Positions 20,001 through 59,331 of a DNA stretch of 64,000 nt are shown piece by piece. Position 1 is the stretch's first letter, and every line of letters begins with the position of its first letter. Source of the stretch: Gossypium raimondii. Taxonomy: Eukaryota > Streptophyta > Magnoliopsida > Malvales > Malvaceae. The stretch is taken from NCBI RefSeq assembly GCF_025698545.1, contig NC_068565.1:6510001-6574000 (forward strand), written 5' to 3'. The translations under genes and the position numbers were made by a program. The notes under the pieces were generated by a model, which saw nothing but the letters and a program-made list of their open reading frames with translations, searched no databases and was not told the DNA's origin.

Positions 20001-20146
20001 AAATTTAATGTGTATCATTAAATCAAATTAAAATTAATGTATCCAATTGTAAATTAAATTATACATGATAGGGCAAAATTTTCGAAAACAATGAAAATTC
20101 AACCCTCCATCACCATCAGTCTGTTAATTAAACTGATATTATAATC
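17041..20146. other. SAM50 3' flank and intergenic region
   Basis: Presumed SAM50 3' UTR extends to about 17400. From about 17280 the sequence starts to match 24290 onward, strongest at 17450-17557 against 24394-24503, where over 100 bp are almost identical. This marks the left edge of the duplicated block that carries the Bet v 1-like gene. About 17.6-20.1 kb is AT-rich, with a TA microsatellite near 19973-19990, and holds no recognised gene. Confidence 0.6.
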
Positions 20147-20773
20147 TTAAGCATCATTTTTTGAACTTTCTAGAAATCTTTTAGTAATTTGTGCAGCAGC
20201 TGCTAAGGGTTGGATATTAGGCTTTGGATCATTAGCTTCAAACTCTTCCTTCACAGCATAACCGATGTCTGATCTGATAATGCATGAATCACTGGTTTTC
20301 TCAATGATGTCAAGTCGAACAATTTGAACCGAGCAACCAATTGCTAGACACCCTCCTTCCAATCCCTTTGCCACTTTCACCTTCTTTTCATCATCAATCT
20401 TAATGAATCTTTCAGTATAGCTTGAGTTGCCTGGTTAGATTGATATAAAAAATGGGTTTTAAAAAGACTTGATCATATACTAACTTAGGGAAAAAAGAAG
20501 GGAATTGGTAGAATATAGAGTACCTGGAACAAAAGTGAGTTTGAGGATAGTTCCAACACCACCATCACCTTTCAAAACTTGAACACTTTGGATCACAGTT
20601 TTGAGCTCTCGAGCAGTAAGCATGGAAATCCCAAGGTGCCTATAAAGCTCCCAAACCCTACTTGCTGCCACATTTACTTCAAGTTCATTGGTAAGATGCT
20701 TCAATTCTTTGAACTCAATTCCCATATAGCAAGAGAAAATAAGAAAGCAAATCAAAGAAACTTGCTTCAACAT
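20147..20773 (-). CDS. Bet v 1 / S-norcoclaurine synthase-like protein, copy 1
   Basis: Two exons on the minus strand, 20773-20524 and 20430-20147, separated by a 93-bp GT..AG intron, encode about 177 aa. A hydrophobic N-terminus (MLKQVSLICFLIFSCYMG) could be a signal peptide. A Bet v 1 fold follows, with the glycine-rich loop GDGGVGT and the helical tail PLAAAAQITKRFLE. The YTERF segment places Tyr and Glu where norcoclaurine synthases have catalytic residues. Homologues bind small hydrophobic ligands and many are called norcoclaurine-synthase-like without making that alkaloid, so the substrate cannot be given. It is one of two tandem copies; the other is 5.8 kb downstream on the same strand. 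Its TATA position reads ATTTAAA, weaker than in the second copy. Confidence 0.9.
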
Positions 20774-21260
20774 TTCTGCAATTCTGTGTTTACTTTTTAT
20801 GGACTTTGGCTTGCCTTTCGAACCTTGGGTTAATAAGTTGTTAACCCTGTAAGAATGATATTCAATGGGTGCAAGTAACGGGGTTTAAATGGAGATGAGG
20901 ATGGGCCAAGCTAAATGCATTAAATGTGCATGGTTTGATTGACAAGTTGAAGTCATTGATGATAACATTAATGCAAACCCAATAAGGTCAGGTCTGAAGT
21001 AGAACAGGTCTTGGCCAATAATAACGGCTGCTGTCTGCCTATTAAGTAAGCGGATAGAATTCATGAACCTTACGTTGTACAAGATCTCTCTTTTTGGGTT
21101 CATCAAAGGGATTATGAGATTCAAAACCCAGCTTTTTGACTAATTAATTCAAATGTTTGTTCGCATTTAGCTGAAGTTATTTAGATGTTACGAAACACCA
21201 AAATGAAATGATTGATATTTGATTATAATATTCTGCGTGTAATTTGTTGACACCCGAAGG
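20774..21260. other. Promoter side of copy 1 and end of duplicated block
   Basis: This sequence parallels 26561-27506 in copy 2: 'gaatgatattcaat.ggtgca', 'gcatggtttgattgac', 'tcttggccaataat' and, further out, 'gactaattaattc.aatgttt' and 'gtgtaa.ttgttgac'. The match ends near 21255, which sets the right edge of the duplication. Confidence 0.7.
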
Positions 21261-24075: not shown

Positions 24076-25927
24076 AATTTTTTCATGGTCTTTTTAAAAT
24101 GAATGAAGTGGCATATTCTAGTATTATTAATAATTAATGAAATTGTAGAATGATTGGTGGTTGACTCATTAAGCATTTGAAACAATAGCTTGAATTGGTC
24201 CTTCAGAAACAAAATTAAAAAAAAAAGTTGACCACAATACTAGATAGCTTATTATTACATCATTTTTATTCTTGAGAAATACTTTTCTTTCTTCATTTTC
24301 CAGATATCTTATTGATCATGATGTTATTTGTTACATCCATGTTTAACTTGGGTGCCTTATTATTACATAATCATTTTATGTTCTGGAATTGTTTGAATGC
24401 CATAAATTTGATATTTATGCTGAAAATTGAAATGAAGTGAATCCATGTGAAGGTTCTTCAATAATAAACACACCACCATTTATACCATACAATTCACAAT
24501 CAATAATAATGTTTCATCTATATTTGAGCAAGATTAAAATGAAAGTCATTTTAGAAAGGGAAAAATAATATCATTAAATAAAAGCAAAAGGTATAAAAGC
24601 TCATGATAAAAATAAAAATTAATTGAGCTCTTATAGAAAAAGTGTATCTAATACGAAAAAAAAAAAATTAATTAGATTTTTCTATTAATAGAAATCATTA
24701 GTTAACTTTATATTTATATTTTAAGGTTCATGTTCAAAGTTTTTCATATTAGTTGGATCGTTAATTAACTAATTTGACCATTAACGACACTGACGTGATT
24801 AATGGGGCTGACAGATAACATGCCATGTGGGCAAATTACCTATGGGATGAATGAAAATCCTTTGCCCCTTTATTGTTACCTTTTGTGCCCCACCTATAAT
24901 ATTTTAACACGTGTCTTTTTATTTATAAAATAACCGGTTAACATCTAAACTTGTGTGTTGACTTGATGGCAGATGATCACTGTTTCATATGTGGTTTGGA
25001 TTTGAGTCGTGCTAGTCATGCTATTGTTAGAATTTTGTTCTCCTCTTTTAATTCAAAAAAAAAAAAATTATGTGTATATTCTCTTTCCTAAAAACCTATC
25101 AGATTCTCTATTCATCTTCTTCCTCATGAATACTTCTTTTTATTTGTAATCCATTATTATTGTCGGTAGTGTATGCAAATCCCAAAATTAAATGTAGACA
25201 GTTTGGAAGAAGGTGACTTTTTATATAGTTTTGAATAAATCTAAAGATTTACTACTGAATTAAGGTATCAAAAAATTTCTTTAAATAAATAAATAAAAAG
25301 AGTGTGAGTTGTCTATGAAGGATCAAAATAGAAGATTATTTTTATCTTTAAACAATCAATCAAACATTATTTTTCACTGTTATGGAAAATAAGAGTGATG
25401 AATGCAGAGCTAAAGAAGTCATGTGCAGCATATCTTTAAGGGATTTCAGGGTTAACAACTTGGAAGAAAACCAGAGTTTCCTTGGCCAATTTCAAAAAGG
25501 TTTTGGCTGTGGAAGATTGGAAGATGTACGACAGAGGGCTTTTTACATCCATTTACCTGGCTTAAATAGACATTTTAATTAAAATCATCTCCTTTGATAA
25601 GCTTCCAATGAGCATCTTCTTCGAAATGCCAGATCAAGTAACTGTTTTATAGGGTTGGATTTGATATTGTAAAGATATTCAACATGAATTTGATTATATT
25701 ATACATAAGATTCCAAACTTTGTCAAAGTCATAAATAACAAGGAGAGAGATATATATATATATATATATATATTTATGTATTAAAAACTCGTAAAGCTCT
25801 TATCTCAGTCTACTTTTCAAATTATACAAAGGTGAAGGCAATCTTTTCCAACACAAGAAAAGATTAAAGAGAGAAAATTCAACTCTCCATCCCCATCAGT
25901 CTGTTAAATTAAACTGATATTATAATC
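24076..25927. other. Intergenic region, left part of second duplicated block
   Basis: About 24290-24503 matches the SAM50 3' flank at 17280-17557, so the duplicated unit restarts here. The rest is AT-rich, with a (TA)n tract near 25750-25772. A small frame at 25382-25582 has no recognisable domain. Confidence 0.55.
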
Positions 25928-26560
25928 TTAAGCATCATTTTTTGAACTTTCTAGAAATCTTTTAGCAATTTGTGCAGCAGCTGCTAAGAGTTGGATATTA
26001 GGCTTTGGGTCATTAGCTTCAAACTCTTCCTTCACAGCGTAAGCAATGTCTGATTTAATAATGCATGAATCACTGGTTTTTTCAACGATATCAAATCGAA
26101 CAATTTGAACTGAGCAACCAATTGCTAGACATCCTCCTTCCAATCCCTTCGCCACTTTCACCTTCTTTTCATCATTAACCTCAATGAATCTTTCAGTATA
26201 GCTTAAATTGCCTGGTTCAATTGATATCAAAAATGGGTTTTAAAAGACTTGATTATATACTAAATTTAGAAGAAAAAAAAAGGAATTAGTGGAATATATA
26301 TATATAGTACCTGGAGCAAAAGTGAGTTTGAGCATAGTTCCAACACCACCATCACCTTCCAAAACTTGAGCATTTTGGATCACATTTTTGAGTTGTTGAG
26401 CAGTAAGCATTGAAATCCCAAGGTGCCTATAAAGCTCCCAAACCCTACTAGCTGCCACATTCACTTCAAGCTCATTGGTAAGATGCTTCAAATCTTGGGA
26501 CTCAGCTCTCATATAAGAAGAGAAAATAAGAAAGAAAATAAAAGAAACTTGCTTCAACAT
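25928..26560 (-). CDS. Bet v 1 / S-norcoclaurine synthase-like protein, copy 2
   Basis: The architecture equals copy 1: exon 1 at 26560-26311 (250 nt) and exon 2 at 26211-25928 (284 nt), a ~100-bp intron, and about 177 aa. The N-terminus MLKQVSFIFFLIFSSYMRAE is hydrophobic. GDGGVGT forms the glycine loop, YTERF is kept, and the tail is LLAAAAQIAKRFLESSKNDA. Differences from copy 1 are scattered substitutions and both frames are open, so both copies could be functional. The intron carries a short TA microsatellite. A canonical TATA sequence lies about 110 bp upstream of the ATG, so this copy may be the better transcribed one. The ligand or reaction is unknown. Confidence 0.9.
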
Positions 26561-26669
26561 TTCTGCAAATCTGGGTTTCTTTTTTATGAACTTTTGCTTG
26601 CCCCTTAAACCTTGGTTTATTAAGTTTTAACCCTCTAAGAATGATATTCAATAGGTGCAGTTGTCAGGG

Positions 26670-26677
26670 TTTATATA
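26670..26677 (-). promoter_or_regulatory. Putative TATA box of Bet v 1-like copy 2
   Basis: The minus strand reads TATATAAA about 110 bp upstream of the ATG at 26560. The homologous position upstream of copy 1 reads ATTTAAA. Confidence 0.55.
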
Positions 26678-26699
26678 GAACTGGAGAGGAGGATGACAC

Positions 26700-27552
26700 A
26701 AGATACCTGCATTAAATGCGCATGGTTTGATTGACGGTTTAAAGTCATAGATGACATTAATGCAACCCCCCAGAAAGGTTATCTTTGAAGTTGAACAAGT
26801 CTTGGCCAATAATCAACAGCTGCGATAACGACGTACTTAAACCTTTTTTTAATCAAAATTATACCTAAATTATACTTAATTATCCAAAATGGCACTTAAA
26901 CTATATTCTGTTACCTAATTACCCTAATTATTATTGGGTACTTGAAAATATTTCTTAACGGATCATTTTGTGACACATGATAATTTTTAACTAAAAGAAG
27001 TTAAATATTTCCTTAAGCATTTTTTTTAAAAAAACGTATAAAATATATTCATTTCTTTTGATTTTCACCCAAGAATTCTGGTGAAGGAAAATTCAACAAC
27101 CCGTAGAAAAACTCACCTAAACCTAGATTCTGGTCTTTCTCACTGTGACTCAGAAGTCATGTATTATTTTTTTCCTTAAAAATAACTTCTTTTTTCGTTT
27201 TTTTTCTATATACTTTATATAAAATAGTTAATATTGAGTGATCCTCTATAATAAAAAGAAAACCTAATTAAATAATGAAATCTAAATATAATTTAAATAT
27301 CATTATGTGATTTAAGTTTTTTTTAATATTTTCTTATAATCCATTTTACCGTCGGAATCATTCTAGGATTACGGGATTGAAAATCCGTATTTTTTAGACT
27401 AATTAATTCCAATGTTTACAGTTGTTTAGATGTTAGGAAAGAAAAGAAAAGAAAATGATAAGGATAGATGTTTGCCAATATCTTAACTTATGTGTGTAAA
27501 TTGTTGACCCCAACATAACTTTTACCCTCTCTTAGCTGTTAATATGTGTAAT
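26700..27552. other. Right part of second duplicated block
   Basis: It matches 20900-21255 in segments, but about 26840-27350 has no counterpart in copy 1. That part contains 'attatacctaaattatacttaattatcc'-type AT-rich sequence and is probably a later insertion. Homology resumes at 'gactaattaattccaatgttt' (~27398) and stops just before the R repeat. Confidence 0.55.
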
Positions 27553-28556
27553 ACATTCCCCTTTTCAAGAAAAAGAGATCTACAAAGAATTATTTTTACC
27601 GGCATTTATAATAGCCGATGTTAACTCTCCTGGCTAGGCGGATGCCAGTGAAAAGTTTCGGACGGGCTGACTATAGGTGCCTGTAAAGTGTGAACATTTC
27701 TCGGTTGAAGTTTTTCCGGCACTTTCAACCCCATTACAAGATACTTTTCAAGGGAGTTTAAAGGGTGGACAAAAGTCATGGTTAATTTAATTTTTTTGCC
27801 GGTGAAATTCATCCTCTTTAAAAATTCAAAACAATTATTAATTGCTTTAGCCCAAATTCATAAAACGAAAAAACTTTCATCCTTATTTGCCCGTATGAAC
27901 CCATTTGAACTTGATGCATCTGAAACCTGCGTAAAGAAAACATCAAGCAAGCCCATTTAAAATTAGACGAACTACACAGTACAGTAAAACATTTGCTACA
28001 TGCAAGATGACTACTGTAACAACTTGATTTTCGTCTGTGTCGGAGAACCCGATTCAAACCCGATTTTCACCGTTGCCCTAGCTTGAATAAGGAATTTGGC
28101 AAGTTTTCTTTATAAAATTTTGATGAATTATTAGTTAAGGTTATATCTTTTAAGCCCATTTGTTGGTTTGTAGAATTAATGAAAATATGACTCAATTTCC
28201 ATTGTAGAAAGTTTAAGAATTTTAGATGTTTAGAGTTTAAATTTATGCATGTTTAATATTAGATAAAATCATGGCAATAATAGATTAAAAATGTGATAAA
28301 ATGAATTGATTCAAGTTTGAATTGTGTTGAGAACTTTAGCTAATTATGTGTTAAGGGGGACCTAATTGTAATGAATAAGAATTTTGAGGTTGAATAGTGA
28401 ATAATGGTAGAACAAGGTTCCTATAATATATTTATGTAGTCGAAATTAGATTTGATCGGATAAATAATGAGATACGAGCATTATGGACATTAGGGATTCG
28501 AGGGATCAAATTGAAATAAACATATTCATGTTTAAATTGTTGTAACCTATGTTCAA
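27553..28556. repeat. Direct repeat R, left copy
   Basis: About 1 kb, nearly identical to 33430-34515 in the same orientation. It runs from 'cattccccttttcaagaaaaagagat' through 'ggcggatgccagtgaaaag' to 'tatgttcaaaatgtttaattaa'. From about 28017 it resembles a Gypsy LTR (TGTAACAACTTG, 'gggacctaattgtaatgaataag'). It has no coding. By hand count there are about 17 substitutions in roughly 900 alignable bases, plus several indels, against the right copy. Confidence 0.9.
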
Positions 28557-28674
28557 AATGTTTAATTAATTTTAACCAAAGCGAGGGAAAGGATTGTATT
28601 GACACATTATCACATTCCCCCCTCCCCAACCCCCAACCCTTTGATGCTACCTACCATTTTCTTTTTTTGGTTCA

Positions 28675-31600
28675 TCAAATTCGAACCGGCAATCCAAAAT
28701 TTTGGTAAGTTCTGATCTCACCTCGTAGGCCAGCAGTCACAATCACCATACCCCAGGCTGAAATGTTTGGATTAACCCCTGAGGTATAGTCCAAACTGAT
28801 CCGGGAGCTCCTGGTCCGAGTTGCCAAAAGAAGTTTTTCCTCTGGCCATGTAGCTGAGATTCTGTCAAAGAAGTAGCTATTGGTTGCACTAGAAATGGTT
28901 CCGTGGAGAGGGCTATTGGTGCACCCGGATGCTGATAATGAACCCTCGTTTCCACTGTACTCCTCATCGGGTGTAGGAGGATGATTGGCTGTTGAAACTT
29001 CATCGATAGTGTCATCAAAACAATTTTGATCATTCAATTGCGTATCTCTTACTCCCCATGTGTCAGACATGCCCGGCCAAGGGATGGCCACTGATACATC
29101 TTTACAGTGGAAATGCTCATAAGAGTATGTTACAGTGACTCCTTTGTTTCTGCTAGGCCGCGATTCTGCTTCTGGTTTCCACACGTAAACATAGGAGTCC
29201 TCACTGGCAGAGACGACATATTTTCCATTTCTCGTAACAGAAGCTGAGATTTGGCTGTTTGTGTTCCGAAATCCTGTCAAAATTACCAATAGCAACTTCA
29301 GCTGAATCAGCACAACTCTAGAATTTTATATCGAGAGATACTAAACGACAACTCTGCAACTTTTTTCAATCAACCAGTAAATTTAGGATCCAAATCTAAA
29401 ACCAGAACACCAACTTTAAGAGTTGAAACTCGGACCATGATACACCAGTACATACCATCACTTAGTTGAGGTAAGTGGAATATGAAGAAGAGTCAGCTTC
29501 AGTCTCCCTTACTTCCTAACTCTCAGCAAAAATCACTATCATCTATGGTCAATCCTTTCAAAATCCAACCAACCCTGTATTTTATGTTTATATCATGCAA
29601 ATATGAAGAATTACCTTTAAACTTGTGAATTAAATCAGACTCATCAACAAGCCGAATTCGTGAATCTGCAGATGTGATGAGTACTTCTGATGAACTACCA
29701 GGTGCAAACTGTTTTAAGAAAGCAACCAACGGGGGAAGAATAAAGTGAATACATGGCAGGCAAGAAATATGCAATAGGTTCCAAGTAAGGAATATCTAAT
29801 TCAACTAGAACAAGGATTTATGCTTTCCTTTCCACATGGATTACCTGGAAACCTGTAATTTTCTTTTGATGAGCTTTCTTCTTTTTATTCTGCAAATTGA
29901 TTTGACTTTTCGGTTGTAACTTGTTCTCTGGAGAAAGTGTAAAATGCAAAAGTTTAACAAAAATTTCTGTGGCAAATAAATTATATAATATAGCATGAAT
30001 ATGCAGACACAAGGTAGAGAGAGAATGAGTAAACTTGTACCAGAAGTATCGTATAAATGGCAGCTTCCTTTGTAAGAGCCAACCAGTGCACCCTTCAAAA
30101 CAATCAAAACTTCCATGAGCTAGAAAGACTTCATATATTATATAGGATGAACTCGAAATTGACCATTGCCTAACCTGGCCATCAGGTGTATAACAAGCAG
30201 CAGTGACCATTTCATGCAGATCATTCCAATCGACAACTTTACGATCAGGAATGCTCCATATGCGAACTTTAGCATCTAGGGACCCACTAATAAAGTATTT
30301 ATCATCAACTGGATTAAACTGGATGCAAGTTACTGTGTCAAGGCAGATCCACAAGAATAATGCATGATTAGCAATACGTAAACCTATTTCAAGAAACAAA
30401 AAATTATATATATAAATATATTACTTTTATGTTGGATCTTTGAATTAGCAATCCCATTGAATCTAAACCAAGCACACTTGAACAGACTTTAATGTTATTT
30501 TAACTGACATGCAGCTTATTACGACTATGAAGACAGAAGGAAATTTCATAACATTCACCAATTCCAGAGAGAAGGGTTACTATTTTTTTTTAAAAAATGA
30601 AGACATGAAATTTACGATTTACTTACCATAATCAATGTGTGAAAATATTCTCAAACAAGTCTTGCTAATCAAGTCCCAAAGCCTCACTGTTTTGTCCATT
30701 GAAGATGACAGCAATTGCTGAAAAGAACAAATAGAAAAATCTTACCAAACTATCCTCCAGCAATTTATGGGTTCATGATTCTAAAAGAGGCTAAGCAGTG
30801 AAGCTGGAAATGAACATTCATATCAAAGTTCTAACAATAACATTCATGAGCGCCTTGAAAAAACTTGTGGTGGCAGAAAAAAAAAACATTTCTAATCTTT
30901 TAACTCAATGTGCACACTCAAAGTTGGTCCTATGATGATCTGAAAGAGTATCATCAGGAACAGTAACATGAACGAGCGCTTTATATAAGGTACATTAAGG
31001 GCATCATCGGGAACCTTGACCAAAATCCCTGGCAAGGAAGAAGGCGTCAAAGAAACATCAAAGACAATAACAAAACCATCGAAAGGGAACAAAGACACAT
31101 CCAATAGAAAGATCAAGCCTCTCACCCGATAACTCACTCTTTGAACAAATAGAAAGCTATATGTAAGTTAACAATAATGTGAAAGTACTTTTCACTAATA
31201 CTCATGTTGCACGTGGCAAAATAAATGCAGGTTGAACTTGTTAGATCATTTCCTTCATGAGCCAAGATACAGCCTACTCAAATTGATTATGTTTACTTGA
31301 TTTTCTAAGGCCTTGCAAAATTCCTTTACTGCTTTGCTGTCCTGTTGCATCAGAATGCATGCAGGTCATTTAGCAGCTGTCTCTACACCTAAATAGGCAA
31401 TGCCAAATTAAAGAACCGGCAATAAATCACTTACAGTTTCGGAAATCAAACCTAAACATATTTAAAATTTCACCACTAAGATCCACCAATTTCTACTTCT
31501 TGTTTGCCAACAATTTAGAAGAAAATTTACTTCATTTTTGCATTTCATAGATCCTTTGCAGCTCAAGATGACAAATATACAATTTTGCCAAGCGTGGAGA

Positions 31601-33432
31601 CAAGTGCATTGCATGCTGCGATGACAATGGTTATTATATTTTGATTAATTTTGATTTACTTGTATCAATTATGCCTGCATTTCGTTGAGTGCATTGCAGG
31701 CAGGCACCCTCTCTTCATTCTCTTCAAGTGAAACATAGTTCCATAACAAAATTCAGTTCTTACAAAAATCAATAAAATGTTACACAACTCTGAACTTCAT
31801 CTTGCCACCAAAACTTGATTAAAAAAGCATCTCATAGAGCACAATTTAGAAGAGTAGAAATAAAATGCATTCCTTTGCCTACTTTGGGCTAGCAGAAAAT
31901 ATAACATAAACCCTCGGTATATGAAAATCAACAGATCAATTTAACAGTTCAACTAAATGAAAGCACATAGACAACAACAATATGTCTGGAGATTATGTGT
32001 TAAAAGTATTCTAATGGTTAAGAAAAGAAAAAATGGAACACTCAATGATGATCAAACTAATAACTCTATATTTTTACATAATTCTCAAATACCTGAGAGG
32101 ATTGAAGAATTAAGACTAACCTGAGATTTGGACCATGAGAGGTCAAGCACATCATCCGAATGTCCTTGAAAAGAACAAAAGGTTTATCTGAAAGTGCAAA
32201 ACAGTATCTGGCACCACAATAGGGTCCAGGCTCAATGACTTGCGGCTTAGAGAAGACCTTCCTCTTCTCTTCTTCTCAGGATGGTGATCTGCAATTGGGG
32301 ACAACATAGTTGTTTCTGGAGATCCATTAGCGACAAGCAAGAAGTTCAAATTCCCATCATCAACCTTTTCCATCAACTCCCCTCTCTTCTCCGATGCAAC
32401 TACCTTCCATACATGAATTTCACAATCCTCACCTGCACTAGCAAGGTACTTTCCATCCAAACTGAACTTAATACTCCAAATGGACCCATTGTGCGCTTGA
32501 ATCTCTTGGCTCTTGTAAAGAGCAGTGAGTTCTTTACAAGATTTTCCATACTGCTTCACCCTCACACGCTCCGGCCCATGAAAAGAAACATCCTGGCTAT
32601 CATCCGTGGCAGAACTCGATCTCCTTCCACCCTTCTCAGATGAGGTATCCCTTTCTTCGCTACTTCGCCTTTCCTTATGGCCCTTTACAGTGACACTACT
32701 CGCAACGCTCTTTATGCTCTTAAACCAACTCCCTTTCTTCTTAAACTTGGAAACATCACCACCACCACCACTGCCATTGGCATCCAAATCTGCACTATCC
32801 TTATTACCCTCTTCCACATTCTGTCTCCTCATCAGTTCGTGAACAATCGGAGAATGCCCAACCCACATCTCGAACTCCTCCATGGTCAACTGCCTCCCAG
32901 TCCCAACTTCCTTCAACTTGTTCCACATCCCATCTTCTCTAATCTCTTTTACTACAAACTCTTTCCCATTATCAAGGTTCTTAATGGTACATACCTGTTC
33001 ACTAGAATCCACCTCATTCCCCGCCGCATCGTCTCCACCATCAAATGATTTAGACCCAAGTTCCCCATTCACACTCTTGCTACTCCGCCCAGTGGGCGGC
33101 TTATTACAAGTAGACCCATTGCTTTCGCAGGTTCTTAAGTTAGGAGCCGCAACATTAATACGATCGCATTCGGTATTATTATTGTTATTTACAAAAGATA
33201 AACCAACAGAAAGAATCGAAGAGGAATTGGGACAGACAGATAAACAAGGAGAAGAAGAAACAGCAAGCTCATTACAATCACCGTTTGATTTCGATCGTAC
33301 AATTCCACAGGAACTACTTCCCTTTTCAACTCCACGATCTTGCTCCTCTGACTCTTTTTTTACCAACCGATCCGAAGAAACTGATCTTCTCTCAAGCTGC
33401 ACTCCTCTTCCTCCAGCAGCACCGGCACCCAT
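28675..33432 (-). pseudogene. WD40-repeat protein (WDR44-like), 5'-truncated duplicate copy
   Basis: Seven exons correspond one-to-one with the copy at 41614-46811: 33432-32121, 30332-30175, 30092-30041, 29927-29845, 29708-29615, 29273-28675, plus a 91-nt exon at about 30627-30717. All introns are kept, so it is a DNA-level copy. It lacks the first ~145 codons and the promoter; the homology stops one codon outside an internal Met (MGAGAAGG). Two single-A deletions, near 32175-32181 and 32197-32204, shift the frame at the end of exon 1, just before WD repeat 2. These may be consensus errors. Exons 2-7 remain open and C-terminal residues (SAWGMVIV) look more conventional than in the other copy. 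As written it can encode only a truncated protein. Confidence 0.8.
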
Positions 33433-34515
33433 TCCCCCTTTTGAAGAAAAAGAGATGCGAGGATAGGGTAATTACCCCAAATATCTTAACTTATTAAAGT
33501 GTGATACTTACAACGTTTTCATTATTCACGTTCTAAAAAGAATTATTTTTACCGATGTTAACTCTCCTGGTAGTCAATGAATTGCCGGTTGACTGCCGGC
33601 TAGGCGGATGCCAGTGAAAAGTTTCGGACGGGCTGACTATAGGTGCCTGTAAAGTGTGAACATTTCTCGGTTGAAGTTTTTCCGGCACTTTCAACCCCAT
33701 TACAAGATACTTTTCAAGGGTGGACAAAAGTCATGGTTAATTTAATTTTTTTGAAGTGAAATTCATTGTATTTAAAAATTCAAAACAATTATTAATTGCT
33801 TTAGCCCAAATTCATAAAACGAACAAACTTTCATCCTTATTTGCCCGTATGAACCCATTTGAACTTGATGCATCTGAAACCTGCGTAAAGAAAACATCAA
33901 GCAAGCCCATTTAAAATTAGACGAACTACACTGTAGAGTAAAACATTTGCTACATGCAAGATGACTCTTGTAACAACTTGATTTTAAATCGTGTCGGAAA
34001 ACCCGATTCAAACCCGATTTTCACCGTTGCCTAGCTTGAATAAGGAATTTGGCAAGTTTTCTTTGTAAAATTTTGATGAATTATTAGTTAAGGTTATATC
34101 TTTTAAGCCCATTTGTTGGTTTGTAGAATTAATGAAAATATGACTCAATTTCCATTGTAGAAAGTTTAAGAATTTTAGATGTTTAGAGTTTAAATTTATG
34201 CATGTTTAATATTAGATAAAATCATGGCAATAATAGATTAAAAATGTGATAAAATGAGTTGATTCAAGTTTGAATTGTGTTGAGAAGTTTAGCTAATTAT
34301 GTGTTAATGGGGACCTAATTGTAATGAATAAGAATTTTGAGGTTGAATAGTGAATAATGGTAGAACAAGGTTCCTATAATATATTTATGTAGTCGAAATT
34401 AGATTTGATTGGATAAATAATGAGATACGAGCATTACGGACATTAGGGATTCGAGGGATCAAATTGAAATAAACATATTCATGTTTAAATTGTTGTGACC
34501 TATGTTCAAAATGTT
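33430..34515. repeat. Direct repeat R, right copy
   Basis: This copy starts 'cattcccccttttgaagaaaaagagat', directly fused to the truncated 5' end of the WD40 copy. It carries about 80 bp absent from the left copy ('gcgaggatagggtaattacccc..'). It then follows the left copy to 'caaaatgtttaattaatt' and continues into unique sequence ('agtttttcataattg'). Confidence 0.9.
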
Positions 34516-35757
34516 TAATTAATTAGTTTTTCATAATTGAATTTACTTTACATAGCTAAAAACGACATAGGGTATAGGGACAACCCATTGAAGTCAATAC
34601 CACCACCGCAATTGTAAGATAATAATGTAGTCATTTATTTCAATATTCCCCACATTACATATCTTGTAGGCATACCCAAACGACAAACCCCTAACTATAT
34701 GTTCCAACTATTTTGAAATTATTTAACAATGGGAGATGCATTGTATGAACTAAATTGCTAGATTTTTTTTACATCAAGGTACCTCCAACAAACTAAAGTA
34801 TATGAGCTCTAGCACTACGTTGAATATCTTCATGTGTGGCATTCCATAGAAGATGCTCGATTTACCTCTTCAACCATTCGAACTTAACATGAAACCATTT
34901 GAGATTAGGTGAATAGCCGAACCTATTTAAAAAGATACAACAAGGATTTGCATTAGACTAAACTTAGAATTTCTAGTTACTATACGCCCATCCATTGAAA
35001 GGTCTGTCTATAGTGCTACATCTATTATTATTGTCGATTTGGTACATGTGAGATGAAACATATGAAGTTCAAGTCTCCATTGTTCAACTATAGCAAAGGT
35101 GAAGGACAAAACAAAAGTAAAATTTTCAATTTCGTTGGCATGATAGAAATTGACAATAATCCTATCGTTATGAAAATTAATTTTCATATTATTGCGAGCT
35201 TAAGCAACTAGATAAGACTCCTTTATTACATGTCCTTCTACAAACCCCCAATTAAGGGGGGTAGCCACTATAGAGAAAAATCGAGAACTTAAGTAGTATG
35301 TAGGATGGTATATAATGTAAATGAGGAATGTTTGCGATTTTATGATTTAAAGGTGTTAAGGTTAGGTTGTAGTAGTGTTTTTCCATGAAACTCAACAATA
35401 ATAGGTATCCACCTTAATTTAAATAATTGTTTGAGTCTTCAAACTCAAATAGATCTCCACACCTATAAATGTTTAACTATTATCCAAACCATTACAAAAT
35501 TTAAATAATTTACTACAAACTCCACATGCTTTAATCATTTAATCATAATTGTTCTGATTTGAATAGGGTGCAAAAATTTGGTGTTACAATCAATACTTAT
35601 TCTTAAAAATAATTTTTATTCAAAAAACTTTTAAAGAAACTATTATAATAAATAATAAATAATTTTACAATAACGAAGTAAAAGAAATGTCTATAACATT
35701 TAGTAATTAGATCTTTACCCAAAACTATAATAATTAAGGGTATTAAATGTTATTGAC
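34516..35757. other. Intergenic region right of R
   Basis: Moderately AT-rich, with no open coding region and no bounded repeat recognised. The sequence immediately after R is probably the original right flank of R before the duplication. Confidence 0.5.
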
Positions 35758-35760
35758 TAA

Positions 35761-35882
35761 GGGTGGGTTTGAATGGGCGATTGGGTGCGGTGCGGTGCGC
35801 TTGGCTTACTTTTTGTCTCACGCTACAGTATCTAATCTCACCGCCACCGCTGTTTTTACACTAACCGCAGGTAAACTCACCC
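35761..35882. mobile_element. PIF/Harbinger-like (Tourist) MITE, copy 1
   Basis: The element runs GGGTGGGTTTGAATGGGCG to 'gtaaactcaccc'. Termini are inverted (GGGTGGGTTT / reverse of right end GGGTGAGTTT). TAA lies immediately outside both ends (35758-35760 and 35883-35885), the 3-bp target expected of PIF/Harbinger. 'gggtgcggtgcggtgc' and 'accgctgtttttaca.taaccgcaggtaaac' are shared with 53972-54108. Confidence 0.85.
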
Positions 35883-36024
35883 TAAAGCTTTCTAGATGAA
35901 GGTATTATTAATAATTAATTTGACTTTTCCTTCAGGGAAAAAAAAGTTGACCCCAAGAATAGAACCCATAAATTTGAAATAGACTTTTTTTTAATTAATT
36001 TATTTGACCCAATCAAATTGAAAG

Positions 36025-36575
36025 TAGAACTCTTCCTGGTCGGGCTTCTGGCCCTGCTCGAAGATCCCAAAAAATGAGAGGGTTTGAGTAAAAATATAAA
36101 CCCAAAAAATATGCTTGGACAAAAAAAAAGATCCGTTTAGAAAATGGGTTGGACCTTAGATAAGACTTTTTCGGCCCAACCCGAATATGTTAAAATAGGA
36201 TTGTTTAAAAAAGCAGGCTTTTTTTTTTGCTGTTTTTTACTCTCTTTTTTCTATTTTCTTGTTGTTGTTGTTTTTTTTATTACTATTTTGCTATTATTTC
36301 ACTTATCTTAATGTTATTTAAGTATACATATTTTTTTTATTTTTTTTCAATTTGTTGGGAAACATTTAATTTAATATTTTTAGTATTTTTTATGCATTAT
36401 ATTTTTTAAAAAATTGTATAAAAAATAATATAAAAAATTAATACAGGTTGGCTCGAATTTTAACATTTTTATTCGAATCGGGTAAAAGTTTAGGCCCATT
36501 TTTTGGGCTAGACCCAAACGTAACAAATGGACCTAAAACTTTAGTTGAGTCTGACCCGACCTATGATCACATCTA
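36025..36575. mobile_element. hAT-like non-autonomous element, copy 4
   Basis: A degenerate member of the family at 6341, 21682 and 22111. The left end is TAGAACTCTTCCTGGTCGGGC; the right end in reverse is TAGATGTGATCATAGGTCGGG. Flanks ATTGAAAG (36017-36024) and ATTGAAAC (36576-36583) agree at 7 of 8. Interior blocks 'gagggtttgagtaaaaatata' and 'ccgtttagaaaatgggttgg' identify the family. Confidence 0.8.
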
Positions 36576-36752
36576 ATTGAAACCTTAATCTAGCATGCAA
36601 AACGAAAACAAACTTCTAAACAAAGCTACAATTAAGGTTTTAAGACATGCATAGGTTGGAAAATTAAATTATATAATTTAGTTTAGTATTATATCATTTA
36701 CTTTGGGATCTCAAAATTTTTATCAATAAATTTATGCAAAAGGTGTTGATTG

Positions 36753-36856
36753 ATTCTTAACTCGGTTAGTATGGGCGTTGTTACTAATGCAGGAGGACGT
36801 GGGTTGGATTGCGTTGAAGCGAATTATCCTCCTAGACATTGTGTTAAAAAAAAAAA
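36753..36856 (+). repeat. SINE-like sequence, copy 2, with A-tail
   Basis: It starts 'ttgattcttaactcggttagtatggg', carries the box-B-like 'gtgggttggattgcg', and ends in an A11 run at about 36846-36856. It aligns with 4636-4735. The A-tail and paired internal motifs favour a tRNA-derived SINE; target duplications were not found. Confidence 0.45.
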
Positions 36857-38645
36857 CAAATATAACCAGAACTTATATTGAGATTGTGCAAAAGAATAAA
36901 GTTACCTGCCCAATTTAATAAATTTGAACTATCTAGATTAAATCTTGTACAAGCTTTTTAATAATTTTGATTGACTGAAATAATTGGATTAAGCATAATC
37001 ACAAAATATATAAAATATATATATATATATATATATAATTCATGAATATATGAGTTATGGAATTTGGGATAGATTTTTGGGCTGCAACTCAATTAAACCT
37101 ATAATCACATACTTAATCATTTCAAAGATTATACAAGTATTCTTTAACAGCCACAGGCAATTGTAATTAATTAGCTTGATTTTTTTTGGAAAAAGAAAGT
37201 TGAAGCAGTCACAAGTAGCTTCATCAATCAGACTGAAACCTTATCCAAAACTAGAAAAACAAAATCAAGTCTGACATAATGCAAATTACTCACTCTCACA
37301 ATTAAATCATGTATTTTCATTTTATGGCTTCATCTGTACATGTTGTTTTCATCAAAGAGATAACAAAGGTAGGAAGGTAGAGCAATTTAGTCTGAAGAAA
37401 TTTATTGAGATATATTTTAGTAGGATTAAAGCATAGTTAATGGCTTAAGAATCATAATATTTGTGATTAATGATCAAAAGGTAGACTTCCACAAAACTCA
37501 AGAAATATAATCACTTCAACACTCCCTTTCTCAACTCAACTCAATGATTATTTTATATCTTCAATTCCCTTATTATCGCTATCTTTTCAAAAATTACAAT
37601 AAATTTCTTAAATAATTTCCATAAAACCCTTTAACCGCGATAATTTTGCTTATTCAAGTCTCAAAGGCATCACTAAATTCTTTTCAATTTTCAAAGTATC
37701 GGAACAAAACTTTGAGAATGTGCTGCTCTTAAATCATAAATTTTCAATACGATAACACTTAAAGAAAACAACTCTTAGCTTGTATGATGTTTTACACATC
37801 AAACAATCACTAAACGACTCTCGACACTTTATGTGAACCACTTTTAATCATTTGTCTTTTATAATACTAAAGTGTAGTGATATTAATGTTTTTTTATGTT
37901 AATTTTTATTAGTGTTTTAACTCATAATTAATTTTCAATTCATGTGCGTTGGAAATTTATTAAATAATTTTTAGTAAAAAGTTAGATTTTGCAACCAATT
38001 AGTAATATTGAGATAAGCATGGTAAATTTTGTAACACATGAGAAAAAATATCATTGATAAAACAATAATGAAATATATAACATAAAAATAATTGGTAACA
38101 AAAATAATATTAAATTTTATAATTAAAATGTAAAATTTTATATTAACGTAGTCATTAAATAAAAGTTATATTTTTTATAAACTATAATGATTATTATATT
38201 GAAAAATATATTTATAACTTTAAAACTTAACTTATAATTAAATTATCATTAAATTAGTAATTTATTTTAAATATTCTAATTTTTATGCAAATATAGTTAA
38301 AATAATTAAATATTATATAATTAAGTTTTGTTGATATTATGCTTAAATTGCAGAGGAAAATAGTGTTCTTCAATTATTTTATCATTTTATAAGAATTATT
38401 AAATTAATTCAGTATATTATAATTTGATATAAATATGAAATTTGATAATTATAAAAAAAAGATTATTTAAAATTATCAAAGATGTATGGGAAAATGGCAT
38501 TTTGATTCAGGTGGATTTTTAAACGACACTTGTATTTGGAACCTGCTCGAAAGGTTCTTTCTTGCTCTTACTTTTATATTATTCCTGGGAATTCAGTGAA
38601 ACAGGTTTTATTCACAAAGACGAAGCTTGCAAGACAGGAAAAGAA
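36857..38645. other. AT-rich intergenic and GCR2 promoter side
   Basis: Contains a TA microsatellite at about 37013-37036 and long AT-rich stretches. No gene is recognised until the GCR2 start. The ~130 bp before 38646 are open in frame with GCR2 but are probably 5' UTR. Confidence 0.5.
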
Positions 38646-41010
38646 ATGGCTGATCGTTTCTTTCCAAATGAAATGCCTACTTTTGTGGCGGAATCAACTG
38701 TCTCTACAGGAGCTGCCGGCGGTGACTCACTCACCAACCTCCTTTCTTTACCTTACAAATCTCTCTCTGATCACCTCAAATCCGCTGCTTTGGCCCTCAA
38801 AGAAACCGTATTCTCTCTTCAAAACTCTGTTTTTGGGTTATTCAATTTTCATTTTTAGCTTCATTTCATGCATAAATCTGTGGGATTCTGCATAGAGAAA
38901 TAAATTTGGTAACTTTGCTGTATTTTTATGTTCTGGGTTTGTTGAGATTTTCTAATTTAACACCCCCCCCCCTTTTTGCTTCATTGATATATTCGCATGT
39001 TAATTATGCGTATAGGCATTGCAATTGGTGACTTTAATGTATATTCTGTTCTGGGTTTGTTGAGATTTTATGAAATAACCAACTTTTACTTTAAGAAAAA
39101 GGGGGAAAATTGTTTTTTTTTTCTTTCGTTTCCTAAGTTTGGGAATTGTTTGGTTTGGAGTCAGGTGGTGAGGGAGACTTGGGGTTTGAGTGGAAAGAGA
39201 GTGCAAGATTATACTTTGTACACAGGAGCACTTGGGACTGCTTATTTGGTCTTTAAAGCATACCAAGTTACCAAGAATGACAATGATCTTAAATTATGCT
39301 CTGATATTGTTAAAGCTTGTGATTCTGCGTCTAAAGATTCTGGGTAATCTCTCTTTCTTTATCTCTACAACAAGTACTGTCATATGCGTTTATGTGTTTA
39401 ATTTTGGACTCGATAAGTTGCTAGGTTTATCTGTGAGATTGTTTCAATTTGATGGATGGACTGCATAAACTTTGTTGGAGTTTGTAGATGAATATGTTTA
39501 GCTTAAAATTCAAGTAATTTAGTTATTTGATTCTTGCAATAGCTGAAAAGTTTAGTTCTTGAATGCTTATGTTATTCTTAATGATAGTCTATTGCTAAAA
39601 CAATCAAGGTTTTGGAATCATTGATCTGAGGTTTGTTAATGAGAATTTTAACTTGATTAGTTTTCTGTTTTCTACTCCAAAGTGACCAACCATGTCGGAA
39701 TGGTAGCTTTCACTCCGATGGGAACTCGTGAATCAGTATGGTGGACATAAGATTGCATTGGAAGTGAGTATTTCAAACTTGACCCGACCTCATATGTGAT
39801 GAGATTGCATGGGTGCAGGCGTGTGACGTTCATTTGTGGACGGGCTGGTGTTTATGCTCTTGGTGCTGTCATAGCAAAGCATTCCGGTGATACAAGTTTA
39901 CAACAGCGCTACTTGGAAAAATTCAAAGAGGTGGTTCATTTTTGCTTTTCGTCTTTTAACTTTTAATTATCTTCCTTTTCTTTTCTGCGTTCACTGTTCC
40001 AGTGGGTTATGTTCTGATAATAGTTTGGCTCTGAGAGCAGATCAGATTCCCTAGTGACTTGCCGCATGAATTATTATATGGGAGAGCAGGGTTCTTGTGG
40101 GCCTGTTCATTCTTAAATAAGCATATCGGCAAAGACACGATATCTACCGCTCGCATAGTAAGACTTGTTTTTCATCTTCTCAGCCTGAATTTTCTTGTTT
40201 AAGAGAATAAAACACAATCAATTGTATTTATTTGTGCTTGGACTTGGAAATTGCGCAGCGAGCAGTTGTAGATGAAATTATTGAGTCCGGTAAACGGCTG
40301 GCGGGCAAGGGAAGATGTCCGTTGATGTATGAATGGCATGGGAAGAAGTACTGGGGAGCTGCACATGGACTGGCAGGAATTATTCATGTTTTGATGGACA
40401 CAGAATTGAAGCCGGATGAGGCGGAGTATGTCAAGGGTACTCTTCGCTACATTATCAAAAACCGTTTCCCCAGTGGGAATTATCCATCAAGTGAGGGAAG
40501 TGAATCCGATCGTCTTGTACATTGGTGCCATGGTGCTCCTGGCATCACACTCACCCTTGTAAAAGCAGCCGAGGTACTCCACGTCACCCTACTTTTTTTC
40601 CCTTGCAAATTGTTTGGAAAAGAATTGCTGTATCTGAAAACCCTTATTTGTACAATGCTGTAAATCAACAGGTTTTTGGGGACAAGGAATTTCTACAAGC
40701 AGCATTGGATGCCGGAGAGGTAGTTTGGAAGCGAGGTCTGCTTAAGCGAGTCGGAATCTGTCATGGTATAAGCGGGAATGCGTATGTATTCCTTTCACTG
40801 TACCGATTGACTGGCAATGTGGAGTACTTATATAGAGCTAAAGCATTTACTTCCTTCTTGTCCGATAGAGCAGAGAAACTTATATCGCAAGGAAAGATGC
40901 ATGGAGGTGATCGTCCGTATTCCCTCTTTGAAGGTATCGGGGGAATGGCGCATCTCTTTCTGGACATGGTCAAAGCGTCTGAGGCCAGATTCCCTGCTTA
41001 TGAAATTTAA
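38646..41010 (+). CDS. GCR2: LanC-like protein GCR2
   Basis: Six exons: 38646-38807, 39165-39343, 39819-39930, 40041-40157, 40259-40573 and 40672-41010. All have GT..AG ends and a continuous frame, giving about 407 aa. The start MADRFFPNEMP matches the N-terminus of plant GCR2; an in-frame upstream Met at 38562 begins with non-conserved sequence. The (alpha/alpha) barrel carries the LanC zinc ligands, Cys in HWCHGAPG and Cys-His in GICHGISGN. CGRAGVYALG, GRAGFLWAC, WGAAHGLAGI and YSLFEGIGGMAHLFLD are the repeating glycine motifs. Arabidopsis GCR2 was once proposed as an abscisic-acid receptor, a claim since disputed; animal LanCL proteins add glutathione to dehydroamino acids. No lesion is seen. 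It converges on the WD40 gene, 0.6 kb away. Confidence 0.95.
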
Positions 41011-41613
41011 CAAGTTATGTGATAAACTTAGAATGTTATATGACATTAGCAAGTGGACCTTATGAAATCCATTCAGCATGATTGGTGGTGAGTTTGTGGC
41101 TCCCAGCTTAAGCAAATGAGTGGTTTATATTTATTTATTTTACGTAAAATTGAATCTAAACCTTACGAAAGAGCTAAAAAACCATAACATCCATATGATG
41201 ATATGCTCAAGAACGTAAGAAACGAGTGAAGAAAACGAATAGTAAAAGAATTTCATTTTCAATTCAATAGGCTTTTCGCCCTATCATCTTAACTCTACAA
41301 TTTCCGACATCAGAAAATACATCGGTATCTAAATTCATGGTGTAGTTCTTTTTTCTTTTTTCTTTTTCTCTGAACAAATCTATACTTTCCTCAATGCTCA
41401 AATGGAGTGGCTTTCCATTGCCCCCCACATCCAATGGGCAGAGGAACAAAGAAAGAAATGAAAGTCAGCTAATATTACAAATCTCAACCAATATCTCACT
41501 CTCTGTACACAATTTTAACCAAAGGGAGGGAAAGGATTGTATTGACACATTATCAACTCATTCCCCCCTCCCCAACCCTTTGATGCTACCTACCATTTTC
41601 TTTTTTTGGTTCA
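41011..41613. other. Convergent 3' flank between GCR2 and the WD40 gene
   Basis: Presumed 3' UTRs of both genes. The left edge of the segment copied to 28.5-33.4 kb falls at about 41515 ('cacaattttaaccaaag'), within the WD40 3' flank. Confidence 0.7.
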
Positions 41614-44600
41614 TCAAATTCGAACCGGCAATCCAAAATTTTGGTAAGTTCTGATCTCACCTCGTAGGCCAGCAGTCACAATCACCATACGCCAGGCTGG
41701 AATGTTTGGATTAACCCATGAGGTATAGTCCAAACTGATCCGGCGGCTCCTGGTCCGAGTTGCCGAAAGAAGTTTTTCCTCTGGCCATGTAGCTGAGATT
41801 CTGTCAAAGAAGTAGCTATTGGTTGCACTGGAAATGGTTCCGTGGAGAGGGCTATTGGTGCACCCGGATGCTGATAATGAACCCTCGTTTCCACTGTACT
41901 CCTCATCGGGTGTAGGAGGATGATTGGCTGTAGAAACTTCATCGATAGTGTCATCAAAACAATTTTGATCATTCAATTGCGCATCTCTTACTCCCCATGT
42001 GTCAGACATGCCCGGCCAAGGGATGGCCACTGATACATCTTTACAGTGGAAATGCTCATAAGAGTATGTTACAGTGACTCCTTTGTTTCTGCTAGGCCGC
42101 GATTCTGCTTCTTGTTTCCACACGTAAACATAGGAGTCCTCACTGGCAGAGACGACATATTTTCCATTTGTCGTAACAGAAGCTGAGATTTGGCTGTTTG
42201 TGTTCCGAAATCCTGTCAAAATTACCAATAGCAACTTCAGCTGAATCAGCACAACTCCAGAATTTTATATCGAGAGATACTAAACGACAACTCTGCAACT
42301 TTTTTCAAGCAACCAGTAAATTTAGGATCCAAATCTAAAACCAGAACACCAACTTTAAGAGTTGAAACTCGGACCATGATACACCAGTACATACCATCAC
42401 TTAGTTGAGGTAAGTGAACTATGAAGAAGAGTCAGCTTCAGTCTCCCTTACTTCCTAACTCTCAGCAAAAATCACTATCATCTATGGTCAATCCTTTCAA
42501 AATCCAACCAACCCTGTATTTTATGTTTATATCATGCAAATATGAAGAATTACCTTTAAACTTGTGAATTAAATCAGACTCATCAACAAGCCGAATTCGT
42601 GAATCTGCAGATGTGATGAGTACTTCTGATGAACTTCCAGGTGCAAACTGTTTTAAGAAAGCAACCAACGGGGGAAGAATAAAGTGAATACATGGCAGGC
42701 AAGAAATATGCAATAGGTTCCAAGTAAGGAATATCTAATTCAACTAGAACAAGGATTTATGCTTTCCTTTCCACATGGATTACCTGGAAACCTGTAATTT
42801 TCTTTTGATGAGCTTTCTTCTTTTTATTCTGCAAATTGATTTGACTTTTCGGTTGTAACTTGTTCTCTGGAGAAAGTGTAAAAATGCAAAAGTTTAACAA
42901 AAATTTCTGTGGCAAATAAATTATATAATATAGCATGAATATGCAGACACAAGGTAGAGAGAGAATGAGTAAACTTGTACCAGAAGTATCGTATAAATGG
43001 CAGCTTCCTTTGTAAGAGCCAACCAATGCACCCTTCAAAACAATCAAAACTTCCATGAGCTAGAAAGACTTCATATATTATATAGGATGAACTCGAAATT
43101 GACCATTGCCTAACCTGGCCATCAGGTGTATAACAAGCAGCAGTGACCATTTCATGCAGATCATTCCAATCGACAACTTTACGATCAGGAATGCTCCATA
43201 TGCGAACTTTAGCATCTAGGGACCCACTAATAAAGTATTTATCATCAACTGGATTAAACTGGATGCAAGTTACTGTGTTAAGGCAGATCCACAAGAATAA
43301 TGCATGATTAGCAATACGTAAACCTATCTCAAGAAACAAAAAATTATATATATAAATATATTACTTTTATGTTGGATCTTTGAATTAGCAATCCCATTGA
43401 ATCTAAACCAAGCACACTTGAACAGACTTTAATGTTATTTTAACTGACATGCAGCTTATTACGACTATGAAGACAGAAGGAAATTTCATAACATTCACCA
43501 ATTCCAGAGAGAAGGGTTACTATTTTTTTTTAAAAAATGAAGACATGAAATTTACGATTTACTTACCATAATCAATGTGTGAAAATATTCTCAAACAAGT
43601 CTTGCTAATCAAGTCCCAAAGCCTCACTGTTTTGTCCATTGAAGATGACAGCAATTGCTGAAAAGAACAAATAGAAAAATCTTACCAAACTATCCTCCAG
43701 CAATTTATGGGTTCATGATTCTAAAAGAGGCTAAGCAGTGAAGCTGGAAATGAACATTCATATCAAAGTTCTAACAATAACATTCATGGCGCCTTGAAAA
43801 ACTTGTGGTGGCAGAAAAAAAACATTTCTAATCTTTTAACTCAATGTGCACACTCAAAGTTGGTCCTATGATGATCTGAAAGAGTATCATCAGGAACAGT
43901 AACATGAACGAGCGCTTTATATAAGGTACATTAAGGGCATCATCGGGAACCTTGACCAAAATCCCTGGCAAGGAAGAAGGCGTCAAAGAAACATCAAAGA
44001 CAATAACAAAACCATCGAAAGGGAACAAAGACACATCCAATAGAAAGATCAAGCCTCTCACCCGATAACTCACTCTTTGAACAAATAGAAAGCTATATGT
44101 AAGTTAACAATAATGTGAAAGTACTTTTCACTAATACTCATGTTGCACGTGGCAAAATAAATGCAGGTTGAACTTGTTAGATCATTTCCTTCATGAGCCA
44201 AGATACAGCCTACTCAAATTGATTATGTTTACTTGATTTTCTAAGGCCTTGCAAAATTCCTTTACTGCTTTGCTGTCCTGTTGCATCAGAATGCATGCAG
44301 GTCATTTAGCAGCTGTCTCTACACCTAAATAGGCAATGCCAAATTAAAGAACCGGCAATAAATCACTTACAGTTTCGGAAATCAAACCTAAACATATTTA
44401 AAATTTCACCACTAAGATCCACCAATTTCTACTTCTTGTTTGCCAACAATTTAGAAGAAAATTTACTTCATTTTTGCATTTCATAGATCCTTTGCAGCTC
44501 AAGATGACAAATATACAATTTTGCCAAGCGTGGAGACAAGTGCATTGCATGCTGCGATGACAATGGTTATTATATTTTGATTAATTTTTGATTTACTTGT

Positions 44601-46811
44601 ATCAATTATGCCTGCATTTCGTTGAGTGCATTGCAGGCAGGCACCCTCTCTCTTCATTCTCTTCGAAGTGAAACATAGTTCCATAACAAAATTCAGTTCT
44701 TACAAAAAATCAATAAAATGTTACACAACTCTGAACTTCATCTTGCCACCAAAAACTTGATTAAAAAAAGCATCTCATAGAGCACAATTTAGAAGAGTAG
44801 AAATAAAAATGCATTCCTTTGCCTACTTTGGGCTAGCAGAAAAATATAACATAAACCCTCGGTATATGAAAAATCAACAGATCAATTTAACAGTTCAACT
44901 AAATGAAAGCACATAGACAACAACAATATGTCTGGAGATTATGTGTTAAAAGTATTCTAATGGTTAAGAAAAGAAAAAATGGAACACTCAATGATGATCA
45001 AACTAATAACTCTATATTTTTACATAATTCTCAAATACCTGAGAGGATTGAAGAATTAAGACTAACCTGAGATTTGGACCATGAGAGGTCAAGCACATCA
45101 TCCGAATGTCCTTGAAAAGAACAAAAAGGTTTATCTGAAAGTGCAAAAACAGTATCTGGCACCACAATAGGGTCCAGGCTCAATGACTTGCGGCTTAGAG
45201 AAGACCTTCCTCTTCTCTTCTTCTCAGGATGGTGATCTGCAATTGGGGACAACATAGTTGTTTCTGGAGATCCATTAGCGACAAGCAAGAAGTTCAAATT
45301 CCCATCATCAACCTTTTCCATCAACTCCCCTCTCTTCTCCGATGCAACTACCTTCCATACATGAATTTCACAATCCTCACCTGCACTAGCAAGGTACTTT
45401 CCATCCAAACTGAACTTAATACTCCAAATGGACCCATTGTGCGCTTGAATCTCTTGGCTCTTGTAAAGAGCAGTGAGTTCTTTACAAGATTTTCCATACT
45501 GCTTCACCCTCACACGCTCCGGCCCATGAAAAGAAACATCCTGGCTATCATCCGTGGCAGAACTCGATCTCCTTCCACCCTTCTCAGATGAGGTATCCCT
45601 TTCTTCGCTACTTCGCCTTTCCTTATGGCCCTTTACAGTGACACTACTCGCAACGCTCTTTATGCTCTTAAACCAACTCCCTTTCTTCTTAAACTTGGAA
45701 ACATCACCACCACCACCACTGCCATTGGCATCCAAATCTGCACTATCCTTATTACCCTCTTCCACATTCTGTCTCCTCATCAGTTCGTGAACAATCGGAG
45801 AATGCCCAACCCACATCTCGAACTCCTCCATGGTCAACTGCCTCCCAGTCCCAACTTCCTTCAACTTGTTCCACATCCCATCTTCTCTAATCTCTTTTAC
45901 TACAAACTCTTTCCCATTATCAAGGTTCTTAATGGTACATACCTGTTCACTAGAATCCACCTCATTCCCCGCCGCATCGTCTCCACCATCAAATGATTTA
46001 GACCCAAGTTCCCCATTCACACTCTTGCTACTCCGCCCAGTGGGCGGCTTACCTAAGTAGACCCATTGCTTTCGCAGGTTCTTAAGTTAGGAGCCGCAAC
46101 ATTAATACGATCGCATTCGGTATTATTATTGTTATTTACAAAAGATAAACCAACAGAAAGAATCGAAGAGGAATTGGGACAGACAGATAAACAAGGAGAA
46201 GAAGAAACAGCAAGCTCATTACAATCACCGTTTGATTTCGATCGTACAATTCCACAGGAACTACTTCCCTTTTCAACTCCACGATCTTGCTCCTCTGACA
46301 CTTTTTTTACCAACCGATCCGAAGAAACTGATCTTCTCTCAAGCTGCACTCCTCTTCCTCCAGCATCACCGGCACCCATTGCCCGTCCCAGACCCAGTTC
46401 CGTTTCTGAGCCGGGTCTTGACCGGGAAAGACCGGAGTCGCGGCTAAGACCCATTTCACGGAGCAGCCAAGTTCTTCTCTCGGAAATGGAGGCGGGTTCT
46501 GAGATCCAGATGTCGAACTTGGAAACGGCCATGGGGAATTTCGGGACGGGAAATGGGTGGCGGGCATTGCTGGAACGGGTAACTTGGTCGGAATCTGAGT
46601 CAGACGAAGGAGTAGTTGAGTTGGAACAAGAACAAGAATTAGAAGAAGCAATGCGATCAAGGGATTCGTAAAAATACTCTTCTTCTTCTTCTTCTTCGAC
46701 TACTTGAACAACTACTTGCCCTTGACCTTTGTTTCCTTCTGTCCCCTCTTCTCCTTGGGTGGAATCCTTGTCTTTCTGGTTGTTGCTTCTATCAATGGGG
46801 TTTTTGCTCAT
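41614..46811 (-). CDS. WD40-repeat protein (WDR44-like), source copy with one frame break
   Basis: Seven exons on the minus strand: 46811-45067, 43657-43567, 43272-43115, 43032-42981, 42866-42784, 42647-42554 and 42212-41614. They describe a protein of about 940 aa. The N-terminal half is low-complexity and charged, with a Glu run at about 39-46 and Ser-rich stretches. The C-terminal half (about 455-930) holds about seven WD repeats, e.g. [20 protein letters not shown] and [10 protein letters not shown]. This fits the plant WDR44-like family, probable protein-interaction scaffolds; partners are unknown. At about 46053-46055 exon 1 has an in-frame TAG and is one base short relative to the other copy (CTTAGGTAAG versus CTTGTAATAAG), breaking the frame near residue 252. 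C-terminal AWRM differs from AWGM in the other copy. It may be a recent pseudogene or contain a sequence error. Confidence 0.8.
46678..46698. repeat. Trinucleotide (CTT)n tract in WD40 exon 1
   Basis: A run of CTT units encodes the poly-Glu stretch on the minus strand. Such tracts vary in length easily. Confidence 0.8.
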
Positions 46812-47170
46812 GCTTTCTTTATGAGCATTCCCATTTCAAATTGGACAAATGAACCATCAAAACCAAGCCAAACAAAATCTGGGTTTGGATTGGATCAAAG
46901 GATGGGAAGGGGGAAAACAGTGTTTGGAGGGATGGAAAGGGAGAGAAAATCAGATCCAAAGGAAAGAAAAAGAAGGCATGGGTTAGGGGGAGGAAGGAAA
47001 GAGAGTTGGGGTTTGGTGATGTCTTTGTGTGGGAGAAGTGAAGGGGAAAATTGATATGGTTTTGTTGGTTTTTGGTTTTTTGGGGGATGGGGCTCTATTG
47101 AAATGTGAACTGTGAAAGGTGAAAGGTGAATGGATCATTTCTCTCTTTCCAAATAAAATATTCCTACTAA
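46812..47170 (-). promoter_or_regulatory. 5' UTR and promoter region of the source WD40 gene
   Basis: Not present in the 28.7-33.4 kb copy. On the plus strand it is purine-rich to about 47000 ('gggaaggggg', 'ggaaagggagag'), i.e. a pyrimidine-rich 5' leader on the gene strand. No clear TATA box could be fixed. Confidence 0.4.
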
Positions 47171-59274: not shown

Positions 59275-59331
59275 ATCTGAACAGGTTGATTGCGAAAATT
59301 GAACTAGCTCTAATATCAGTTTGTTGCAATT

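Follow-up and report, generated by a model that had tools for sequence, protein, structure and literature searches.

The window analysed here, a 64,000-nucleotide stretch of the Gossypium raimondii genome, carries a WD40 gene (gene B) and, to its left, a partial copy of the same gene (copy A) placed between two direct copies, R1 and R2, of a repeat R of about 1 kb. Gene B was modelled by hand with GT-AG introns (Table 1), and its exon 1 piece matches the WD40 family PF00400 in Pfam (1.4e-11). R2 and gene B are separated by an interval, X, near the right end of which lies a LANC-like gene (Pfam PF05147, 6.9e-31). A search of prokaryote contigs with the exon 7 protein and one of viral contigs with the exon 1 protein found no relative, as expected for a plant gene, and Rfam searches of the sequence returned nothing at gathering thresholds.

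Further repeats occur elsewhere in the window. Self-comparison reveals a second pair of direct repeats just upstream (20093-21031 and 25873-26823), about 950 bp long and 87% identical. Both copies contain minus-strand open frames (20483-20884 and 26243-26626) with translations that look alike by eye, and these similar frames suggest that the pair is probably an older gene pair rather than LTRs; neither frame has a Pfam match at 0.01. On the right side of the window, the segments 55911-56402 and 57382-60291 hold a GAG-pre-integrase domain (Pfam PF13976) and, close to it, direct and inverted repeats, likely a degraded Copia-type element.

Table 1 Features of the duplicated WD40 locus, in window coordinates.
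Feature	Coordinates	Strand	Remarks
R1, left copy of the ~1-kb repeat	27554..28571		96.2% identical to R2 across the main piece, 27632-28571
Junction 1 microhomology AATT (R1 end / WD40 3' flank)	28568..28571		common to 34521, 28568 and 41511
WD40 copy A	28568..33433	-	3' flank, exons 7-2, partial exon 1; introns present; 5' end of gene absent
Substitution-free tract of copy A, 14 indel events	30389..33103	-	paired with 43329-46051
Two one-base frame breaks in copy A	32177..32198	-	each at an A run one base shorter than that of B
Junction 2 microhomology CATT (WD40 exon 1 / R start)	33430..33433		common to 46377, 33430 and 27554
R2, right copy of the repeat	33430..34524		adjoins the right flank
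X, interval without a second copy in the window	34525..41510		self-comparison
Block B, donor copy of the WD40 segment	41511..46380	-
WD40 gene B (parent), seven exons	41614..46811	-	hand-made model; ATG 46811, stop 41614

The order of the segments in the assembly, as read from the self-comparison of the window, is L-R1-WD40A-R2-X-WD40B, and the whole structure spans about 19 kb. Self-comparison with blastn aligns 28568-33437 with 41511-46384 on the same strand at 98.9% identity with 26 mismatches, and 27632-28571 with 33598-34524, again on the same strand, at 96.2% with 23 mismatches. Leftward of this main piece the R copies continue, as three short collinear stretches split by indels, as far as 27554 and 33430. 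The two copies differ by 23 substitutions in 927 sites and by indels of about 76, 16, 29 and 11 bp (sizes taken from coordinates), of which the 11-bp indel lies inside the main piece and the other three separate the leftward pieces. Copy A occupies the whole space from the end of R1 to the start of R2, with nothing left over. Thus R and the WD40 segment are each duplicated and X is single-copy in the window, the layout of the DUP-NML-DUP class of rearrangement; the only repeats that X contains are short, diverged and common to other places. The first-pass annotation had described the WD40 match in the same orientation with its introns, the bracketing direct repeats, and shared AATT and CATT at the left and right joins, all of which hold; it had ended R at 34515, whereas the shared sequence continues to 34524. 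In the assembly the R1-WD40A-R2-X-WD40B structure is genuine, and the rearrangement is probably present in the plant itself.

Searched with the exon 7 protein, the plant's own genome (750,779,957 bases in 281 contigs) yields 16 matches, comprising B, A (96%), a paralog on chromosome 13 (84%) and 13 others at 36-56%. The chromosome 13 region matches B over 41240-47128, past both ends of the block, and matches A within 28679-33390 only. This asymmetry identifies B as the parental location and A as the derived copy. At the DNA level, nothing matching the LANC-like gene is present in the 30 kb beyond the 3' end of the paralog or in the other stretches compared. Nineteen sites with A-B substitutions at 28640-30388 were polarised with the paralog, which places eight changes in B and five in A and leaves six uninformative; the polarisation covers substitutions of that stretch only. 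Many indel rows there face a gap in the paralog, and their labels carry no meaning. Because eight changes are assigned to B, the parent is not a pristine reference. Constraint on the changes that separate the copies seems weak: in exons 3-7, 8 of the 12 changed codons are nonsynonymous, where random changes would give 78%. The frame of copy A departs from the conserved frame at the two sites given in Table 1, and in the assembly gene B is itself frame-broken at 46052-46054, by a small complex difference from A. Exon 1 of the paralog is open through the break sites of both copies, though it is shorter by three codons at the 46052-46054 site.

Several familiar routes to such a structure were considered and set aside. 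A processed (retro) gene copy is ruled out by the introns kept within the block. LTR retrotransposons are characterised by a target-site duplication and by TG...CA ends. R starts with CATTCCCC and ends with TTTAATTAATT; the ends do not match, and no target-site duplication is present, so the R copies are not LTRs. The five bases abutting the structure differ on its two sides (TAATA versus AGTTT), and the 60 bp on either side of the whole structure share no word of 6 bp or longer. A TIR transposon with a captured gene was likewise rejected: no inverted repeat joins the ends of the structure, and 60-bp ends of the whole structure and of its parts align as inverted repeats no better than sequences paired at random, the fractions of 500 random pairs that were at least as good being 0.72 for R1 to R2, 0.74 for R1, 0.43 for R2 and 0.51 for block A. 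R is also not a mobile repeat inserted twice, as R1 shares 96% identity with R2 and none of the other listed matches is close; 39 of the 41 own-genome matches listed are at 66-88% identity, and no third copy near 96% occurs among these 41, for which the best candidates were scored. Parts of R, for the most part in its second half (28070-28557), belong to an old dispersed repeat family: at least 37 of the 41 listed own-genome matches fall in this half, at 66-80% identity, and are located elsewhere. Insertion of the WD40 segment between two pre-existing R copies has compatible dates and is disfavoured because the insert would have had to land exactly on the R/R boundary.

Both novel joins carry a microhomology of exactly 4 bp. 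Among 50,000 random breakpoint pairs drawn from this window, 2.6% share at least 4 bp, and the chance of finding both is 0.0007 if the junctions are independent (about 0.026 each); at that per-junction rate the pair is suggestive rather than overwhelming. Microhomeology was found at neither junction, identities over 40 bp being 0.35 and 0.375 (P of 0.23 and 0.15). The best reading of the locus, held with about as much confidence as doubt, is a duplication of the DUP-NML-DUP type that arose through two microhomology-mediated template switches. In this scenario a strand engaged in replication or repair would first have copied R and then jumped, at AATT, to the WD40 gene's 3' flank some 7 kb onward (13 kb as the locus now stands). 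After 4.87 kb of the WD40 locus, a second jump at CATT would have taken it back to the beginning of R, which was then copied again. Both switches may have taken place in one event. The first-pass annotation had proposed one such replication event, and the proposed path fits the segment order, the exact abutment of the segments and the origin of A from B; that explanation is not the only one, as the same sequence would result from a tandem duplication and a subsequent deletion, a route that the annotation had not considered.

In that two-step scheme, a tandem duplication of about 12.95 kb (R, X and a truncated WD40 segment, joined at CATT) would have been followed by a deletion of about 7.0 kb that removed the first X and left the AATT join. 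It is possible, if rather unlikely. The scheme predicts the same order and orientation, both microhomology joins and equal ages, and also that A should be cut short at the unit's distal end; sequence by itself does not separate it from a single event. Its cost is a second event, and no trace of X is seen between R1 and A. A considerably less probable origin is patch repair of a staggered break, in which R would be a filled-in overhang of about 1 kb, duplicated on both sides, and the WD40 segment filler copied in between. Vaughn and Bennetzen reportedly described in 2014 such patch-mediated insertions at double-strand breaks in rice, with tandem duplication and with direct copies of the target on either side of the insert, so that the class is known for plants. 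The cotton locus resembles them in its insert flanked by a direct target duplication exactly at the boundary; it would differ from them in its flanking duplication of about 1 kb, which would be long for an overhang, and in its 4.87-kb genic insert from nearby. Nothing in the sequence sets patch repair apart from the preferred template switching.

The WD40 pair is mosaic in its divergence. Over 28640-30388 the copies differ by 19 substitutions in 1749 sites with one indel event, whereas over 30389-33103 they show 14 indel events and not a single substitution in 2711 sites. Fisher tests of this contrast give 1.8e-8 for substitutions and 1.1e-8 for the balance of substitutions and indels. The run of 2711 substitution-free sites exceeds the longest run, 2132, in 20,000 shuffles. 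After a small complex difference at 33104-33107, a further 245 sites are also free of substitutions, and the final 81 WD40 sites before the junction contain two. Slow evolution of the tract is ruled out by the divergence of B from the paralog, which is 20.5% inside the tract and 14.9% and 23.2% outside. Ten of the 14 tract indels are a single base in an A or T run, and two of the tract indels cause the frame breaks of copy A listed in Table 1. We read the tract as truly identical or collapsed sequence that retains uncorrected long-read errors, the one-base indels presumably being such errors left by incomplete polishing. Ectopic gene conversion between direct gene duplicates is a known class, and later conversion may have produced the substitution-free 2.7 kb. 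Identity in the tract is significantly above that of its flanks (p=1.8e-8), as in gene conversion, and an assembly patch would look identical. The tract shares with ectopic conversion its sharp bounds within otherwise diverged copies; unlike plain conversion, its one-base indels indicate additional sequencing or assembly error.

The same observations bear on whether copy A, or its 2.7-kb middle, is an assembly artefact, that is, a false duplication, a gap patched with reads from B, or an alternative haplotype placed in series. The many indels of a tract with no substitutions would fit this explanation, as would the scarcity of A/T runs of exactly five bases in A at 31640-32210 (two, versus eight in B) and the frame break of B just past the tract edge. 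Set against these are the substitutions and the single indel at 28640-30388, with their nonsynonymous codons, by which A is distinct from B and more than a duplicate of B reads. Both joins, moreover, fall at 4-bp microhomologies, unlike repeat-mediated misjoins, and several indels distinguish R1 from R2. An artefact is accordingly judged improbable, slightly more so than patch repair.

The mosaic also governs how the ages of the two pairs are read. The first-pass annotation had counted 11 substitutions in the 599 bp of exon 7, which is exact, and about 17 in some 900 bp of R, which is too low against the 23 noted above and their accompanying indels. The single age that it drew from these counts was based on one exon, and exon 7 is unrepresentative of a block in which 30389-33103 is without substitutions. 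It had also named beforehand, as evidence against a single event, a clear difference between the R and WD40 pairs when compared over full length. Such a difference is found: R has 23 substitutions in 927 sites and the WD40 pair 34 in 4858 (p=8.6e-6), where the 34 include eight apparent substitutions at 28613-28630 that come from placement around an indel and are absent from the 26 counted by blastn. The difference is attributed to the homogenised or mis-assembled WD40 tract and is not evidently one of two insertion ages. Comparison with 28640-30388, a stretch that excludes the eight shifted sites, still gives R the higher rate by raw substitutions (p=0.008); with neighbouring changes merged, R has 15 events in 927 sites and the WD40 stretch 17 in 1749 (p=0.19), and for R versus exon 7 the substitutions give p=0.48. 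R contains four indels of 11-76 bp, and the WD40 block none that long. The greater number of raw substitutions and the long indels suggest that the R pair could be somewhat older. One age for both pairs is allowed by these counts, not shown.

The rearrangement belongs to a known kind. In PMC6902434, DUP-NML-DUP accounts for 9 of 50 cases at the human PLP1 locus, and nonrecurrent PLP1 rearrangements are attributed to template switching (FoSTeS/MMBIR) with microhomology of 2-9 bp, a range that includes AATT and CATT at 4 bp each. The PLP1 cases share with the present locus two duplicated segments, a copy-neutral interval between them and microhomology joins. The cotton locus differs in being from a plant, in its total of about 19 kb, in being known from a genome assembly, in the lack of microhomeology at its joins, and in having been partly homogenised later or mis-assembled. 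A more elaborate history is a long shot: a single replicative repair event in the germ line, with two template switches, would have added about 5.9 kb (the extra R and the WD40 segment), conversion would then have preserved the truncated A as the parent's frame was lost at 46052-46054, and the N-terminally shortened A, with R2 as its new upstream region, would be replacing the parent.

The locus offers a compact, base-resolved example of a plant genome gaining a partial gene beside a duplicated non-coding segment. It also illustrates that dating from one exon can mislead where a duplicate is partly homogenised or poorly polished. The DUP-NML-DUP class is known mainly from human genomic disorders, and if one event were proven here, the locus would provide a natural plant case for that class.
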